64,000 nucleotides of DNA. It comes from Bacillota bacterium (lineage in GTDB: Bacteria > Bacillota > Clostridia > Peptostreptococcales > Anaerovoracaceae). The stretch is taken from positions 1 through 64,000 of the forward strand of contig JARBUO010000001.1 in NCBI GenBank assembly GCA_029239605.1, read 5' to 3'. The position numbers and the translations under genes are program-made. Under the pieces are notes generated by a model. That model saw nothing but the letters and a program-made list of their open reading frames with translations, did not search any database and was not told the DNA's origin. Position 1 is the stretch's first letter. Every line of letters starts with the position of its first letter. Shown here piece by piece: positions 38,056-45,202 of the stretch.

Positions 38056-38817
38056 TCAATATTTGCTCTGAATCACGATTTGGCTTGCATCCCGGCCCGT
38101 TTCCCGAATGACGATGTCACAGATTTTTGCAACGTCAGACTGGCTGATTTCCTGCTTGTATACAGTCACATTGACGGAATTATCGGTAATCAAAACCAGC
38201 GCATCGGTGAATCCTTTGTTCTTAATAAGATTCTCCACAACCTTCTCTGTATTCATGTAATTGATGATTTTCAGCTTCTGCTGTGTTGCATTGTTCTTTT
38301 CCGGACCGTCCTTCGTCTCTTCTATCACGTCGGTAAGCATCGAGATCACTTGATTTCTGTCCATATTGATCGTTGCTCTTACCTCTTCGAAATAGGTGTC
38401 TGCATTGGCCAATTCTTCCAGATTATCAGATGTAACAATGAGGCTCTTGTCGATGGGATCAACTGCAGAGGCATCGGCGTTGGTAGGCACAGCAGCACCA
38501 CCCGCAATGGTATCGATGATCTGACCGTTTGTATCGGTGGCTTCACCGGGAGCCTGACCGCCTGGCGCGGCATTGGGATCAACCGCTGCATTTGGGTCCA
38601 CAGCAGTGCCCGTCGTAGACGGAAGTTCCGCAACATTAGCACTGTCCACAAGGACATCTCCGTCATGAAGATCCATCTGCTCTGCTTCATAATCCTCATA
38701 TCCGGCAGTCGTTGCCAGATTCTGATCGTTGCTCAGTTTGTTGTTCAAAACACCGACGCAAACGATAAGGGCCAGCATACCCATTAAAATTATTTTTTTA
38801 CGTTTTGTGAATTCCAT
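38056..38817 (-). CDS. spoIIIAH: Stage III sporulation protein AH
   Basis: N-terminal TM; C-terminal SpoIIIAH-like domain; position next to spoIIIAG. Confidence 0.88.
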   Translation of the reverse strand: MEFTKRKKIILMGMLALIVCVGVLNNKLSNDQNLATTAGYEDYEAEQMDLHDGDVLVDSANVAELPSTTGTAVDPNAAVDPNAAPGGQAPGEATDTNGQIIDTIAGGAAVPTNADASAVDPIDKSLIVTSDNLEELANADTYFEEVRATINMDRNQVISMLTDVIEETKDGPEKNNATQQKLKIINYMNTEKVVENLIKNKGFTDALVLITDNSVNVTVYKQEISQSDVAKICDIVIRETGRDASQIVIQSKY

Positions 38818-38854: not shown

Positions 38855-39313
38855 TTATTTCATGCTGTTTTTCTCAAATACCACTACATTTGCCACAGGG
38901 ATGTCGTATACCGTTGCAACCGCATTTATTATATTATTCCTGACAATAATGTCACCTGCTCCCTCGGAGGCAACGATCACTCCTTCCACCATAAGATTCC
39001 GGTTATTATCTCCGCTGCCGAAGACCGTGTCAGTTTCTTCCCTGCTCCGGTAGGTTATCATAACACTGGTTTGACCTACCCCTTTCATCTGGCTCAAAAT
39101 ATCCTCAAGCCTCTTTTCTTCCTGTGTCGCCAGTGCGGCCGACTCCTCTGTATACTCCGTTCCTCCGTCCATATCCACAATCTGTCTCCTTCCGTCCTTG
39201 CTTTGGGTAAGGACGTCAAAGAGCAGAAGCGCAATGGCGGCAACGAACAATACGGTGAGCAGTCTGACGAGCAAGTCCTTAACATATTTATCATTCTTTA
39301 GTTTATCCCACAT
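38855..39313 (-). CDS. spoIIIAG: Stage III sporulation protein AG
   Basis: N-terminal TM; LEDILSQMKGVGQTSVMITYRS; VVASEGAGDIIVRNNIINAVATVYDIPVANVVVFE. Confidence 0.88.
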   Translation of the reverse strand: MWDKLKNDKYVKDLLVRLLTVLFVAAIALLLFDVLTQSKDGRRQIVDMDGGTEYTEESAALATQEEKRLEDILSQMKGVGQTSVMITYRSREETDTVFGSGDNNRNLMVEGVIVASEGAGDIIVRNNIINAVATVYDIPVANVVVFEKNSMK

Positions 39314-39442: not shown

Positions 39443-39610
39443 TTATTCCAGGAAAATTGCCAGCGGAGACAATATTATGGCCATAATAATCAGAGAAAAG
39501 ATAAATTTCAAATATTTGCTCATACTGCCCGCCGGAAGAAGTATTTCAACAAACGTGATTGCCACAATAATGATGAAAATATTCTTCACCCATTCTCTGG
39601 CTATTTCCAT
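39443..39610 (-). CDS. spoIIIAF: Micro-SpoIIIAF: N-terminal TM-hairpin only, 55 aa
   Basis: MEIAREWVKNIFIIIVAITFVEILLPAGSMSKYLKFIFSLIIMAIILSPLAIFLE*; matches the SpoIIIAF N-terminus pattern; start overlaps the spoIIIAE stop; absent from the supplied ORF track. Confidence 0.8.
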   Translation of the reverse strand: MEIAREWVKNIFIIIVAITFVEILLPAGSMSKYLKFIFSLIIMAIILSPLAIFLE

Positions 39611-40689
39611 AGGCTTCCACCTCCGATCCCGATAATGATGGCCAGAAAAATCATAAACATCAGGGCACAGAGGAAAAGGATGATTGCCAGCGTGATAACG
39701 GTATTTCCCACCTCATTTACGCAGTCTGAAACCGTTTTGTTTCCGATGGGCTCGATCACGACTGCCGTTACCTTGAATATCAATGCCACTGCAAGGATTT
39801 TGAGCAGTGGTATGATCAGCAGTGTCAACAAAATTATCAGTCCGAAGATTCCGATCCCGTTCTTAATAATCGTAGTGCAGCTGATGATCAGGTCCAGGGA
39901 ATCTGCCGCGAACCCTCCCACAATAGGAACGAAATTGTCTACGGAATATTTTGCGGTCTTCGCAAGCATACCGTCTGCCGTTTTTGTAACAATACCCTGC
40001 ACAATGGTTAACCCTGAGAATAAGGTCACAGCAAGGCCGATCCCATAAACTGCAATTCCTCTGATCAGCAAAGCCAGCTTTTTAACGTAATCTCTCTCGG
40101 AAAGGCTATTGACAAGAATGAAAACGCAGGAGAGGTAGACTGCCGGCATGATGAATTTCTGGAGAAAGGAATTAAATAATGTTATAGCGCCTACGATAAA
40201 TGGGTTCAGAATTCCCCCGGAAGAAAATCCTCCCATGGAAATCAATAAAGGCACCAGAACTGGCAGCAGCGCCTGCATAGTTACCGTCATGGTATTGACA
40301 GAATCACTGCAGACATTGTAGATATCCATAAAACTTTTCAGGCATAGTACCATGACACAACAGCTGCATACAATCGCTCCCAGCTTGGATACAGTGTCCT
40401 CCGAAAAGGAAGTCGAGAAATTCTTTAAAAGTCCGATGATGATGCAGATGATTACCAGCTGTACCCCCAGCATGATACTGATATTAATTTCTTTCAGGAA
40501 ATGGCTGCCGATTGCAGCCAGGATATCATGTAGGTTAAAAATAGGATCTCCCTTGAGAATACTCCTAATAATCTCTCCGGGAGAGGTATCGCCGAAAATG
40601 CTTCTGCTTCCTGACAAATTAAAAAGTTCTTCAATTTTTCTCATATCCATGGAAGCGAGCTGTTCGTTAACAATACTTTCTATACTCAA
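39601..40689 (-). CDS. spoIIIAE: Stage III sporulation protein AE
   Basis: Polytopic; MTVTMQALLPVLVPLLISMGGFSSGGILNPFIVGAITLF; ADGMLAKTAKYSVDNFVPIVGGFAADSLD. Confidence 0.93.
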   Translation of the reverse strand: MSIESIVNEQLASMDMRKIEELFNLSGSRSIFGDTSPGEIIRSILKGDPIFNLHDILAAIGSHFLKEINISIMLGVQLVIICIIIGLLKNFSTSFSEDTVSKLGAIVCSCCVMVLCLKSFMDIYNVCSDSVNTMTVTMQALLPVLVPLLISMGGFSSGGILNPFIVGAITLFNSFLQKFIMPAVYLSCVFILVNSLSERDYVKKLALLIRGIAVYGIGLAVTLFSGLTIVQGIVTKTADGMLAKTAKYSVDNFVPIVGGFAADSLDLIISCTTIIKNGIGIFGLIILLTLLIIPLLKILAVALIFKVTAVVIEPIGNKTVSDCVNEVGNTVITLAIILFLCALMFMIFLAIIIGIGGGSLWK

Positions 40690-40739: not shown

Positions 40740-41135
40740 TTAACCCGGTAGCATCTTGTTGATCAGCTCCATGACCGACATGATGACGGGGATGGCAAGG
40801 TAGAAGATCATAACCTTGCCTGCAAGCTCCACCTTGCTTGCTATGGCGGACTCTCCCGAATCCTTGCATATCTGCGCAGTGAAATCAGCAATATATGCCA
40901 CCGCCAGAACCTTAAGGATAATGGGAAAAAAGTTTCTTCCGTAGGTGATCTGATTGTAAATGTCACCTAAAAACTCAAATACGGAGGTTAGCTTATATAG
41001 AATCATGATGAAGATAACCAGTACTGTTGAGATTACGACATAAATTGCAAATTCGGGCTTGTGTCCCTTCACCATAGATGCCGTCACGACTCCGCAAAGA
41101 CCGATCGCGGCAATTTTAAAAATATCCATGTCCAT
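40740..41135 (-). CDS. spoIIIAD: Stage III sporulation protein AD
   Basis: Small membrane protein; AVAYIADFTAQICKDSGESAIASKVELAGKVMIFYLAIPVIMSVMELI. Confidence 0.92.
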   Translation of the reverse strand: MDMDIFKIAAIGLCGVVTASMVKGHKPEFAIYVVISTVLVIFIMILYKLTSVFEFLGDIYNQITYGRNFFPIILKVLAVAYIADFTAQICKDSGESAIASKVELAGKVMIFYLAIPVIMSVMELINKMLPG

Positions 41136-41242
41136 AAAATCACCCCATTTCTTTTGTACACTAGCTCATAGAAAGCCCTTGATTTGTTTTAATATTACTG
41201 CCCGAGGCAGCACTGGCTTTCCGATACAGAAGCTTATTTTCT

Positions 41243-41443
41243 CTACAATTGAAACAAGGTTTTCACGGTGATGAAAAAATCATTGATCATTTGAACGATT
41301 AGCAGCAGAACGACAATAATTCCCGCAAGGGTAGTCATCATCGCCTGATCCTCCCGCCCAGCACGTATCAGAACCTGATTCAGCACAGCTACTATAATAC
41401 CGATGGCTGCAATTTTAAAAATGAGATCCACATTAATATCCAT
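41243..41443 (-). CDS. spoIIIAC: Stage III sporulation protein AC
   Basis: 66 aa; MDINVDLIFKIAAIGIIVAVLNQVLIRAGREDQAMMTTLAGIIVVL. Confidence 0.93.
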   Translation of the reverse strand: MDINVDLIFKIAAIGIIVAVLNQVLIRAGREDQAMMTTLAGIIVVLLLIVQMINDFFITVKTLFQL

Positions 41444-41567
41444 TCTGACTTCTCCTCTCTCGTTATTTGCATGAACTTAATCTGTGGATGTGCTGATTTA
41501 TTCCCATGCACATCCTTAAGAGTTTTCACCGGAAGGCAGAGCATGTAACTTTGCTACCCGACGCTAT

Positions 41568-41600
41568 CCATACATCATATTCTGTGGACAAGAATTTATG
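41568..41600 (-). promoter_or_regulatory. Putative SpoIIID box / sigma-E-type promoter upstream of spoIIIAC
   Basis: ccaTACATCATATtctgTGGACAAGAaTTTATg; matches the element upstream of spoIIIAA at 24 of 29 positions. Confidence 0.65.
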
Positions 41601-41630
41601 CCAACGGAGTGAGAGGAAAATTTAAAGCAA

Positions 41631-41664
41631 TCAAAAACGGCATCTACGAGATTCATAGATGCCG
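41631..41664 (-). terminator. Terminator downstream of HAD phosphatase gene
   Basis: Minus strand CGGCATCTA-TGAATCTCG-TAGATGCCG-TTTTTGA. Confidence 0.88.
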
Positions 41665-41717
41665 CGAAATAGCGGGATGGCCAATGGGTTTCCAAGAGGT
41701 TATTATGTAAAACAGGA

Positions 41718-42560
41718 TCATTCATCCGCAATCAAGCCATACTTGAGAAAACTCTTATAAATTCCGTCTTCCATAACAGGCTCTGCAAAATCATCCGCTA
41801 CAGCAAGGAGCGCCGGCGAACCATTCCTCATACAAATACCTGTTCCGCAAAATTGTACCATTTCTATATCGTTCATACTGTCGCCATAACATATGGTTTG
41901 ATCCTGATGAATGTCATAACGGGAAAGGATGCTTTGAATTCCGCTGGCTTTGGAAATTGTCTTCACTGCAATCTCGCAAAGATACACGCCTTCGGCGTTG
42001 GGATCATGGATTGTCAGTTTCAAATGCTCCGGAAGATACGGATAAAGTGCATTCAAATCCTCTAACCGATCTGTCAAAAGCGAAAGCTTGCTGATGACTT
42101 CAGATCCTCTGAAATATTCCTCTTGTCTTGGAATTAGTTCCGTAGCCCAGTGGTACTTCTCCAAAAGTTCATATAAAAATGCATCGATTTTGTAAAGCCG
42201 CTTTGCATACGCGCAAACCGGTTCGTTTATAAAAGTAGCCCGATATCCTTCAAAAAGACAGCCGATGGCACGAGAATTGATGGGTTCCATCAACTTCATA
42301 ACAGTTTCTTTTTCAAGAGTCTCAAGCAGCAGAATTTCTCCCTCTGCCTCGGCATAAGCACCGGCAGCACATATGTACCCATCAAAACCGATCTCACTCA
42401 CTGCCGTCGGAACGTTGATCTTTGAGCGTCCGGTACAAATAAATACCTTATGTCCTCGCGCTCTGGCCTCACGAACAGCAATCACTGCTGACTCGGGTAC
42501 TCCATTTACCGGATCAAGAAGTGTTCCGTCAATATCAATAAAAATATAGCGTTGATTCAT
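41718..42560 (-). CDS. Cof-type HAD-IIB sugar-phosphatase-like hydrolase
   Basis: YIFIDIDGTLLDPVNGVPESAVIAVREARARGHKVFICTGRS; ICYGDSMNDIEMVQFCGTGICMRNGSP; start revised. Confidence 0.92.
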   Translation of the reverse strand: MNQRYIFIDIDGTLLDPVNGVPESAVIAVREARARGHKVFICTGRSKINVPTAVSEIGFDGYICAAGAYAEAEGEILLLETLEKETVMKLMEPINSRAIGCLFEGYRATFINEPVCAYAKRLYKIDAFLYELLEKYHWATELIPRQEEYFRGSEVISKLSLLTDRLEDLNALYPYLPEHLKLTIHDPNAEGVYLCEIAVKTISKASGIQSILSRYDIHQDQTICYGDSMNDIEMVQFCGTGICMRNGSPALLAVADDFAEPVMEDGIYKSFLKYGLIADE

Positions 42561-42602
42561 TGCATCACCTTTCCGGTATTCTGAAAATACGCTTAGATTG
42601 CA

Positions 42603-42648
42603 AGAAAAAAGGCAAAACAAAAAACCTTGAGAGTTTTGAGTTTTGCCT
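42603..42648 (-). terminator. Terminator downstream of spoIIIAB (before HAD gene)
   Basis: Minus strand AGGCAAAAC-N21-GTTTTGCCT-TTTTTC. Confidence 0.88.
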
Positions 42649-42772
42649 GAATGATCAGTAAAAACCTCAATCTATATCCTATTATGATTCAAAAATATGA
42701 CAGTTGTCAACAATTTGTGTGTTTCCAGTAGGAAATGAGATATGAATTTTCGGTATATAAAAGAAGTGTCCG

Positions 42773-43294
42773 TCAGATCAGCAGAATCACAATGAGCATT
42801 CCCACAGCCGGTCCCAGACTCTTATACATCCTTCCCTTTGATTTTTTTTCATCGGTTGCTTCCAATACCTGAACCTCAAGAAGAGAAAAGGTTCTTAAAA
42901 ACATCCCTGTCTGGCTGTTTAAATCGGTCTTTCCCAGTTCGATGCCAAGATCAGAAACAATTCGTTTATCCTCGGCTTTTAAGGCACTTTCTCCATAGGC
43001 CTTTTCCACTGCTTCACTCCAGCAGGTGGGAAGATCCGTTCCTGCCCGTGTTCTAAGCAGCTCTGCCGCTGTAATCAGAAGATCGCTGCTCATTCCGGGC
43101 TTGATTGCACCAATTCTGGCGAAAAGATCAGGCAGCGGGTCAAGACGGTATTTCATTTCCGATTCCAATACCTTCAGAGTCGTAATCAAATCCTGCAGAT
43201 GATAGACCCGGTTATCGAAGGTTTTTGCCTTCAGCTGCCCCATCACTGCCCCTACCGCCAATATAAGTATGCAAAGGATTCCCTTAAACAACAT
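42773..43294 (-). CDS. spoIIIAB: Stage III sporulation protein AB
   Basis: MLFKGILCILILAVGAVMGQLKAKTFDNRVYHLQDLITTLKVLESEMKYRLDPLPDLFARIG. Confidence 0.9.
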   Translation of the reverse strand: MLFKGILCILILAVGAVMGQLKAKTFDNRVYHLQDLITTLKVLESEMKYRLDPLPDLFARIGAIKPGMSSDLLITAAELLRTRAGTDLPTCWSEAVEKAYGESALKAEDKRIVSDLGIELGKTDLNSQTGMFLRTFSLLEVQVLEATDEKKSKGRMYKSLGPAVGMLIVILLI

Positions 43295-44189
43295 CCTGAT
43301 TCCTCCAATCTCTGATGGCTGCAATTGATCCAATAGCAGGCACATTGGACAGGAAGATCAGGCGTTCGAAGACGCCCCGCTCAACCATCTCACCGATGCC
43401 GGAGTTTTTCACATCAGCATAGTTGCTCCCGTGAATCGTGGTCAGCAGACCGACGCCCGCGCAGACTGCAGCTTCAATGGCGTGACAATCCTCCTTCTTT
43501 CCGATTTCATCAGTGGCGATGATATCAGGAGACATGGATCGTATCAGCATGATCATACCTTTTTCCTTTGGGCAACCGTCAAGAACATCCGTTCTGATTC
43601 CCAGATCATAAGATGGCTTTCCATTATACATCCCTGATATTTCTGATCGCTCATCGCAGACGCCCACCTGATAACCCATCCCGCTTAAATTTCGGATCAT
43701 ATCCCGAAGAAGCGTAGTCTTTCCGCACTTTGGCGGCGAGATGATCAGGGTATTGTGAATCTGGCCCTTCCCATTGAGAAGATATCCCATACAGGGGTCT
43801 GATACACCGGTGATCTCCCTGCTTCTTCTGATGTTAACAGAAGAAATATCTTTAATGGTTTTCACCTTGCCGTTTTCCATGACGGCCTTGCCGCAAACGC
43901 CTACTCGGTGACCGCCTTCAATTGTAATATAGCCGTTTGCAAGTTCTTCCTGATAAGCGTATGCGGAGTGGTTAAGCAATGCATTAAATATGTTGTTAAT
44001 TATGTAATTATCTATTTTTCCTTTTTTACACTCCAATTCATATTCCTTGCCTCCGGCAAAAATCAAAACATGGTTTCCGTTTCTAATTCGGACTTCTTCC
44101 AGGTTTTTCTTCATTCCGGCTGGCAGCTCCTTGATCGGTTCGCTAACCTCTGCCGGAAGCTTTTCCAATATTTTATCCAATCCGTTCAT
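43284..44189 (-). CDS. spoIIIAA: Stage III sporulation protein AA (ATPase)
   Basis: Walker A SPPKCGKTTLLRDMIR; GGHRVGVCGKAV; ATDEIGKKEDCHAIEAAVCAGVGLLTTIHG. Confidence 0.95.
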   Translation of the reverse strand: MNGLDKILEKLPAEVSEPIKELPAGMKKNLEEVRIRNGNHVLIFAGGKEYELECKKGKIDNYIINNIFNALLNHSAYAYQEELANGYITIEGGHRVGVCGKAVMENGKVKTIKDISSVNIRRSREITGVSDPCMGYLLNGKGQIHNTLIISPPKCGKTTLLRDMIRNLSGMGYQVGVCDERSEISGMYNGKPSYDLGIRTDVLDGCPKEKGMIMLIRSMSPDIIATDEIGKKEDCHAIEAAVCAGVGLLTTIHGSNYADVKNSGIGEMVERGVFERLIFLSNVPAIGSIAAIRDWRNQDVV

Positions 44190-44314
44190 CTCTCCATCCT
44201 TCCCTTCTTTTTCCTCTCGATCCTGCTATCCTCCTCGCGGCTAAAACAGTCAGTGGGCAAATTTGCCCCTGCAATTTTTGCCCTTGTAAATTGAGGCTAA
44301 TGAGACATCTACAT

Positions 44315-44343
44315 TACATCATATGAGATGGACAAGATTTTAT
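44315..44343 (-). promoter_or_regulatory. Putative SpoIIID box / sigma-E-type promoter upstream of spoIIIAA
   Basis: TACATCATATgagaTGGACAAGAtTTTAT; same element precedes spoIIIAC. Confidence 0.65.
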
Positions 44344-44506
44344 TCCCCATTGAAGGAAGTATTGGAGTATTCAGGAATCGGAATTTAGGGTATAATGATT
44401 CTGACTCTATTGGGTTGGAACCCGCAAATTGCCTCAGGGGATCACGGCCGGTTTTGGCTTTGACATGGCGATTTCATTTTTGAAAAGAGAAGGAGTAGTA
44501 AGGATT

Positions 44507-45202
44507 ATGGAAAAAATACTGGTTGTAGATGACGAACAAGCAATTGCAGATCTGATTGAAGTTTATTTAAAAAATGAAAATTTTGAGGTTTTCAAATTCT
44601 ATAACGGAACGGCTGCACTGAAATGCCTGAACCGTGAAAGTATAGACCTTGCTGTGCTGGATATTATGCTGCCGGATATCAACGGCTTTTCCCTCTGTCA
44701 GCAGATCAGAGAAAAACACATGTTTCCCGTCATAATGCTTACAGCCAAGGATGAAGAAATCGACAAGATCACCGGGCTTACTTTAGGCGCCGATGATTAT
44801 ATGACAAAGCCCTTTCGCCCGCTGGAGCTGGTTGCGAGAATAAAAGCACAGCTGCGGAGATTTACAAAATACAATGCTGCAGAGCAGGTTCAGGAAGATC
44901 AGATCCTCATTCATTCCGGGCTCGTTCTGAATAAGGACAAGCATCAATGCTTGCTGAACGAAAAATCCCTTTCTCTGACTCCCATCGAGTTTGCTGTTTT
45001 ATGGACACTTGTCTCCAATAAAGGACGTGTAGTGAGTTCCGAAGATTTATTCCGCGAAGTTTGGGGTGAAAAGTATTACACCAGCAGCAATAATACGGTC
45101 ATGGTCCACATCCGGCATCTGAGAGAAAAGATGCAGGATAGCGCAGATCGTCCCAAGTATATTAAAACAGTATGGGGGGTTGGCTATACCATTGAAGATT
45201 AA
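44507..45202 (+). CDS. vanR: VanR-like OmpR-family response regulator
   Basis: Receiver domain (VVDDEQ, LDIMLPD, KPFRP) plus wHTH; first gene of van cluster. Confidence 0.85.
   Translation: MEKILVVDDEQAIADLIEVYLKNENFEVFKFYNGTAALKCLNRESIDLAVLDIMLPDINGFSLCQQIREKHMFPVIMLTAKDEEIDKITGLTLGADDYMTKPFRPLELVARIKAQLRRFTKYNAAEQVQEDQILIHSGLVLNKDKHQCLLNEKSLSLTPIEFAVLWTLVSNKGRVVSSEDLFREVWGEKYYTSSNNTVMVHIRHLREKMQDSADRPKYIKTVWGVGYTIED

Follow-up and report, generated by a model that had tools for sequence, protein, structure and literature searches.

Near-copy sigma-E-like promoters precede the two parts of a split spoIIIA locus in the Anaerovoracaceae

The spoIIIA locus, which encodes the channel leading from the mother cell into the spore and is a signature of sporulation almost always found in one piece, is cut between spoIIIAB and spoIIIAC in the window analysed here (the whole stretch of 64,000 nucleotides of a Bacillota genome), and near-identical promoters precede spoIIIAA and spoIIIAC. 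We consider it quite probable that AA-AB and AC-AH form separate mother-cell units, expressed from two copies of a single promoter type, and that the promoter twin made the AB|AC joint breakable while leaving the halves coordinated. A family that breaks spoIIIA repeatedly at one joint, with near-identical promoters kept for the two halves in the clade under study, offers a natural test of whether it makes a difference that ATPase and channel are transcribed together, and the locus may illustrate how co-regulation can survive the cutting of an operon.

Gene order and the interrupting gene

All eight genes, spoIIIAA to spoIIIAH, were found intact in the window, on one strand and in canonical order (Table 1), with calls based on Pfam for AA, AB, AC, AD, AE, AF and AH and on a sub-cut-off NCBIfam match for AG. 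They are not contiguous, as a foreign gene stands between AB and AC. The initial annotation, made from the sequence alone, had the gene identities, order, strand and coordinates right by Pfam and NCBIfam, and its proposal that a Cof-type HAD hydrolase splits the locus was borne out by a score of 165 bits against the curated TIGR00099 cut-off of 137. The spoIIIAF product is a short form in which the C-terminal domain is missing; this length of 55 aa is found throughout the genus and in several other genera of the family, compared with 170-210 aa in outgroups from the order. In B. subtilis the C-terminal domain of SpoIIIAF is the ring-building one.

Table 1. Features of the split spoIIIA locus (positions within the window)
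Feature	Position	Strand	Evidence
spoIIIAA promoter, sigma-E-like -35/-10 enclosing a SpoIIID-like box, CTTGTCC	44315..44343	-	exact motif match
spoIIIAA (ATPase)	43284..44189	-	TIGR02858 above cut-off, PF19568
spoIIIAB	42773..43294	-	PF09548 above cut-off; TIGR02833 below cut-off
HAD promoter, sigma-A-like, TTGACA-N18-CATAAT	42681..42710	-	11/12 consensus match
Terminator-like hairpin in HAD leader	42604..42648	-	-16.2 kcal/mol, z -4.4
Cof-type HAD-IIB phosphatase gene, 280 aa	41718..42560	-	TIGR00099 above cut-off
Terminator after HAD gene	41632..41665	-	-20 kcal/mol, z -6.1
spoIIIAC promoter, same motif as spoIIIAA promoter	41571..41599	-	motif match; without HAD gene in G002, G004, G007
spoIIIAC	41243..41443	-	TIGR02848 above cut-off
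spoIIIAD	40740..41135	-	TIGR02849 above cut-off
spoIIIAE	39601..40689	-	TIGR02829 above cut-off
spoIIIAF, short form, 55 aa	39443..39610	-	PF09581, N-terminal part only
spoIIIAG	38855..39313	-	TIGR02830 below cut-off; no Pfam hit
spoIIIAH	38056..38817	-	PF12685 above cut-off

The interrupting protein resembles the Cof-type HAD-IIB phosphatases in its full-length match and in its DxD and GDSMND motifs, but its nearest sampled homologues outside the A. hadale clade are about 34% identical or less, and recent arrival from a known donor was rejected on this best value among the 391 genomes of the class and 119 relatives sampled. Synonymous sites are saturated between the window and A. hadale both in this gene and in spoIIIAA; the dN/dS of about 0.09 for the HAD gene indicates that the protein is maintained. 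Its sigma-A-like promoter lies inside a 39-nt block that is identical in A. hadale despite the saturated synonymous sites. As the gene is kept under purifying selection in three species (G000, G008 and G006), it could have been recruited into the sporulation programme for a spore function. We regard this as very unlikely, because the gene has a sigma-A-like promoter, lacks the motif of the spoIIIA promoters, is flanked by a hairpin on either side and is missing from all other relatives.

Both hairpins named in the initial annotation exist, and none of 200 shuffled sequences folded as well as either; each combines a stable stem with a T-run, from which termination is predicted. The stem at 42648-42610, followed by TTTTTT, is conserved in A. 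hadale and was missed by a simple terminator scan because of its internal loop, whereas the same scan detected the hairpin after the HAD gene (41665-41637). Terminator-like hairpins of different sequence occupy this latter place in all three species with the gene (in G006 as judged by eye). The upstream hairpin had been taken as the terminator of spoIIIAB. It lies downstream of the overlooked HAD promoter and before the HAD start, and therefore belongs to the HAD leader too, where it would additionally stop read-through from AA-AB.

In a riboswitch or attenuator search, positions 41200-44700 matched no Rfam family at E-values up to 1, and a known riboswitch in the HAD leader was rejected on this basis. 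A repeated element was likewise rejected, the leader being present within the genus in G000 and G008 only. In both of these genomes positions corresponding to 42610-42674 allow an alternative pairing (TTGA-bulge-GTTTT with AAAACTCAA), which would disrupt the terminator hairpin and, going by these two sequences, makes the leader a possible antiterminator or attenuator.

Twin promoters of spoIIIAA and spoIIIAC

The promoter cores in front of spoIIIAA and spoIIIAC agree at 24 of 24 fixed positions, and the shared element reads ATAAA[A/T]TCTTGTCC-N5-ATATGATGTA. When the 3.95-Mb genome was searched with the motif ATAAAWTCTTGTCC-N5-ATATGATGTA, allowing up to three mismatches, two sites were recovered, one upstream of AA and one upstream of AC; the reversed motif, used as a control, gave no match in the same genome. 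The element is built like a sigma-E promoter, with ATA in the -35, a -10 of ATATGAT and a 13-nt spacing compatible with the sigma-E spacing of 12 +/- 1. Adjoining the -35 in both copies is CTTGTCC, a putative SpoIIID site, the reverse complement of GGACAAG, which we take to be the core of SpoIIID sites in B. subtilis; the box fits KRTAACARK, the C. difficile consensus, only in part. The position of the box equals that of the region (-21 to -45, the -35 included) that SpoIIID protects in the B. subtilis spoIIIAA promoter, which it represses (PMC517825), so that a SpoIIID-type site overlaps the spoIIIAA promoter there and, putatively, here. The window genome encodes spoIIID, and a similar pair, GGCATAT...CATATATATG, lies upstream of that gene; the region upstream of spoIVA held no clear promoter for comparison. 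From these consensus matches we infer that both copies are used by sigma-E and SpoIIID.

The spoIIIAA motif is conserved in 8 members of the genus, and in G000, G002, G004, G006, G007 and G008 neither copy of the pair has a mismatch. In two genomes outside the genus, G055 and that of Sinanaerobacter chloroacetimidivorans BAD-6, the pair is likewise present, with 1-2 mismatches. Inside the genus, CATATGATG is the form seen upstream of AA and GAATATGATG the form seen upstream of AC; that AA copies resemble each other, and AC copies each other, indicates that the pair is old and that its members have had separate histories.

The earlier proposal of two spoIIIA transcription units, separated by an independent gene, was supported; the promoter of spoIIIAC, like that of the HAD gene, had been overlooked. 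The further suggestion, that the ATPase could thereby be expressed independently of the channel components, did not find support. Its selective version holds that the split serves to give AA-AB a timing or level of expression unlike that of the AC-AH channel. The two units do have separate promoters, the first base of the -10 is C in AA copies and A in AC copies throughout the genus, which could set different strengths, and the spoIIIAC leader measures 127-145 nt in the HAD clade compared with about 50 nt outside it. Such uncoupling nonetheless seems unlikely to us, given that the agreement of the two promoters extends to the SpoIIID-like box and that contiguous sister genomes possess the same promoter pair, so that little is altered by the insertion itself. 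Independent expression of the ATPase is less likely than coordination, since one promoter is nearly a copy of the other; their common box points the same way, and the two halves are probably still switched on together.

Within the longer leader of the HAD clade, at about 41460-41520, lies a degraded promoter look-alike (GGAATAAAT...CCACAGA), possibly a decayed tandem copy.

Age of the second promoter and recurrent breaks at one joint

The window genome is a metagenome bin of 248 contigs, and an artefact of assembly, raised in the initial annotation as a threat to the split, had to be considered. Comparison of the AB-AC interval across relatives speaks against it: the closed A. hadale genome (G008; 4,941,017 bp) has the same gene order, with a HAD protein 85% identical to that of the window, and in G006 the 3' end of the HAD gene adjoins spoIIIAC at a contig edge, giving the right-hand half of the arrangement. 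Misassembly was rejected on the evidence of the closed genome, and we assign it a negligible probability.

The five other genomes of the genus in which the locus was detected (G001, G002, G003, G004 and G007) have no HAD gene and 33-253 bases between AB and AC. Three of them, G002, G004 and G007, carry the AC promoter copy, which indicates that the second promoter is older than the HAD insertion. On a tree of concatenated AA-AE proteins, in which BAD-6 and G055 are the next branches outside the genus, the AC promoter is placed at the base of the clade and lost in G001 and G003. These two retain a contiguous operon, so the AC promoter is dispensable as long as the operon is unbroken.

Across the family, 81 genomes have both AA and AE; the locus is contiguous in 69, broken in 10 and undecided, at contig ends, in 2. 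The broken genomes fall into five groups, within each of which they are not independent. Besides the three genomes of the HAD clade, the AB|AC joint is broken in BAD-6 by about 15 kb in which an ABC sugar transporter and genes for glutamate synthase are among the contents, and in G218 and G219 by aromatic-amino-acid genes, from DAHP synthase to prephenate dehydrogenase (by Pfam in G219). In G055, AA-AB and AC-AH are on separate contigs, with AC-AH behind obgE and the usual downstream genes retained. All of these AB|AC-broken lineages have a sigma-E-like promoter before AC; in G219, ATAAAACTTTGGACAAGGAATATACATG stands ahead of AC. The last group, G141-G143, is broken at AD|AE instead, with GCATAAA-N13-CATATACA in front of AE; in G142, AE-AH follow iscS and nifU. 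The tree leaves the number of events uncertain, since G055 and BAD-6 are neighbouring branches, the deepest of the clade, and their breaks might go back to a single ancestral break that was later rejoined.

Of the 76 Clostridia sampled from outside the family, 75 are contiguous from AA to AE. The exception, G874 (L277, 5569-9021), from another Clostridia family, has AE-AH alone, behind what by eye is a D-Ala-D-Ala carboxypeptidase-like gene. G140 (L138) has a contiguous spoIIIA locus, yet shows a T-run hairpin (AGACCTATCAAGGTCTGTTTTTTTT) after AB and a sigma-E-like promoter before AC.

If the locus is, as we favour, two units driven by one promoter type, the promoter would have been duplicated, or a twin would have evolved, ahead of spoIIIAC before the genus arose. 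AC-AH would thereafter have been independent of read-through from AA, and the AB|AC joint able to accept inserts. In the A. hadale clade a Cof-type HAD gene occupies the joint, along with its own promoter of the vegetative type, a leader containing a hairpin, and a terminator; in relatives the same joint is broken by the 15-kb block, by the cluster of aromatic-amino-acid genes or by a rearrangement. The prediction for the mother cell is that sigma-E starts both units from the twin promoters and that SpoIIID later shuts both down; the HAD gene would be read by the vegetative polymerase, insulated by its two hairpins. A wider interpretation takes SpoIIIA as two separable regulons, a motor (AA-AB) and a channel (AC-AH), produced in unequal amounts or at separate times, with the duplicated sigma-E/SpoIIID promoter marking a functional boundary that evolution keeps cutting; it strikes us as improbable, to about the same degree as selected uncoupling.

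The breaks could also reflect neutral decay, the locus falling apart under relaxed selection where sporulation is rare or absent. In the medium that was tried, no spores of A. hadale were observed (PMC11362086), so that the locus may be little used there, and the family includes Aminipila and Anaerovorax, both described as non-spore-forming. In the closed genome G143, moreover, spoIIIAA (L172, ~1934-2802) contains stops and a frameshift, marking either a pseudogene or long-read errors. Against decay stand the eight intact genes of the window, a dN/dS of about 0.012 for spoIIIAA against A. hadale (with saturated dS) and the perfect retention of the promoters, which leave it a rather poor candidate, slightly behind selected uncoupling.

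Relation to known spoIIIA operons

The locus shares with the B. subtilis spoIIIA operon the same eight genes in order, and differs from it in that a foreign gene interrupts the series after AB and a second promoter copy stands before spoIIIAC. Guillot and Moran are said to have found, in 2007, an internal spoIIIA promoter that drives spoIIIAG-AH. The spoIIIAC promoter is similar in being a second promoter within the locus that serves downstream genes, but it is located before AC and not before AG-AH, closely resembles the first promoter and stands at a joint that breaks repeatedly. Internal promoters supplying AG-AH are documented in both B. subtilis and C. difficile (PMC4605598, PMC6934232), and the premise of the initial annotation that spoIIIA is one contiguous sigma-E operon in well-studied sporulators, although broadly correct, passes over them. 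In the literature searched, mostly without subscription papers, no description was found of a near-copy promoter before AC or of recurrent breakage at that point.

Among the 119 relatives the twin motif marks spoIIIA promoters, plus one palindromic site in G118, and it provides a clean marker for spoIIIA annotation within this lineage.
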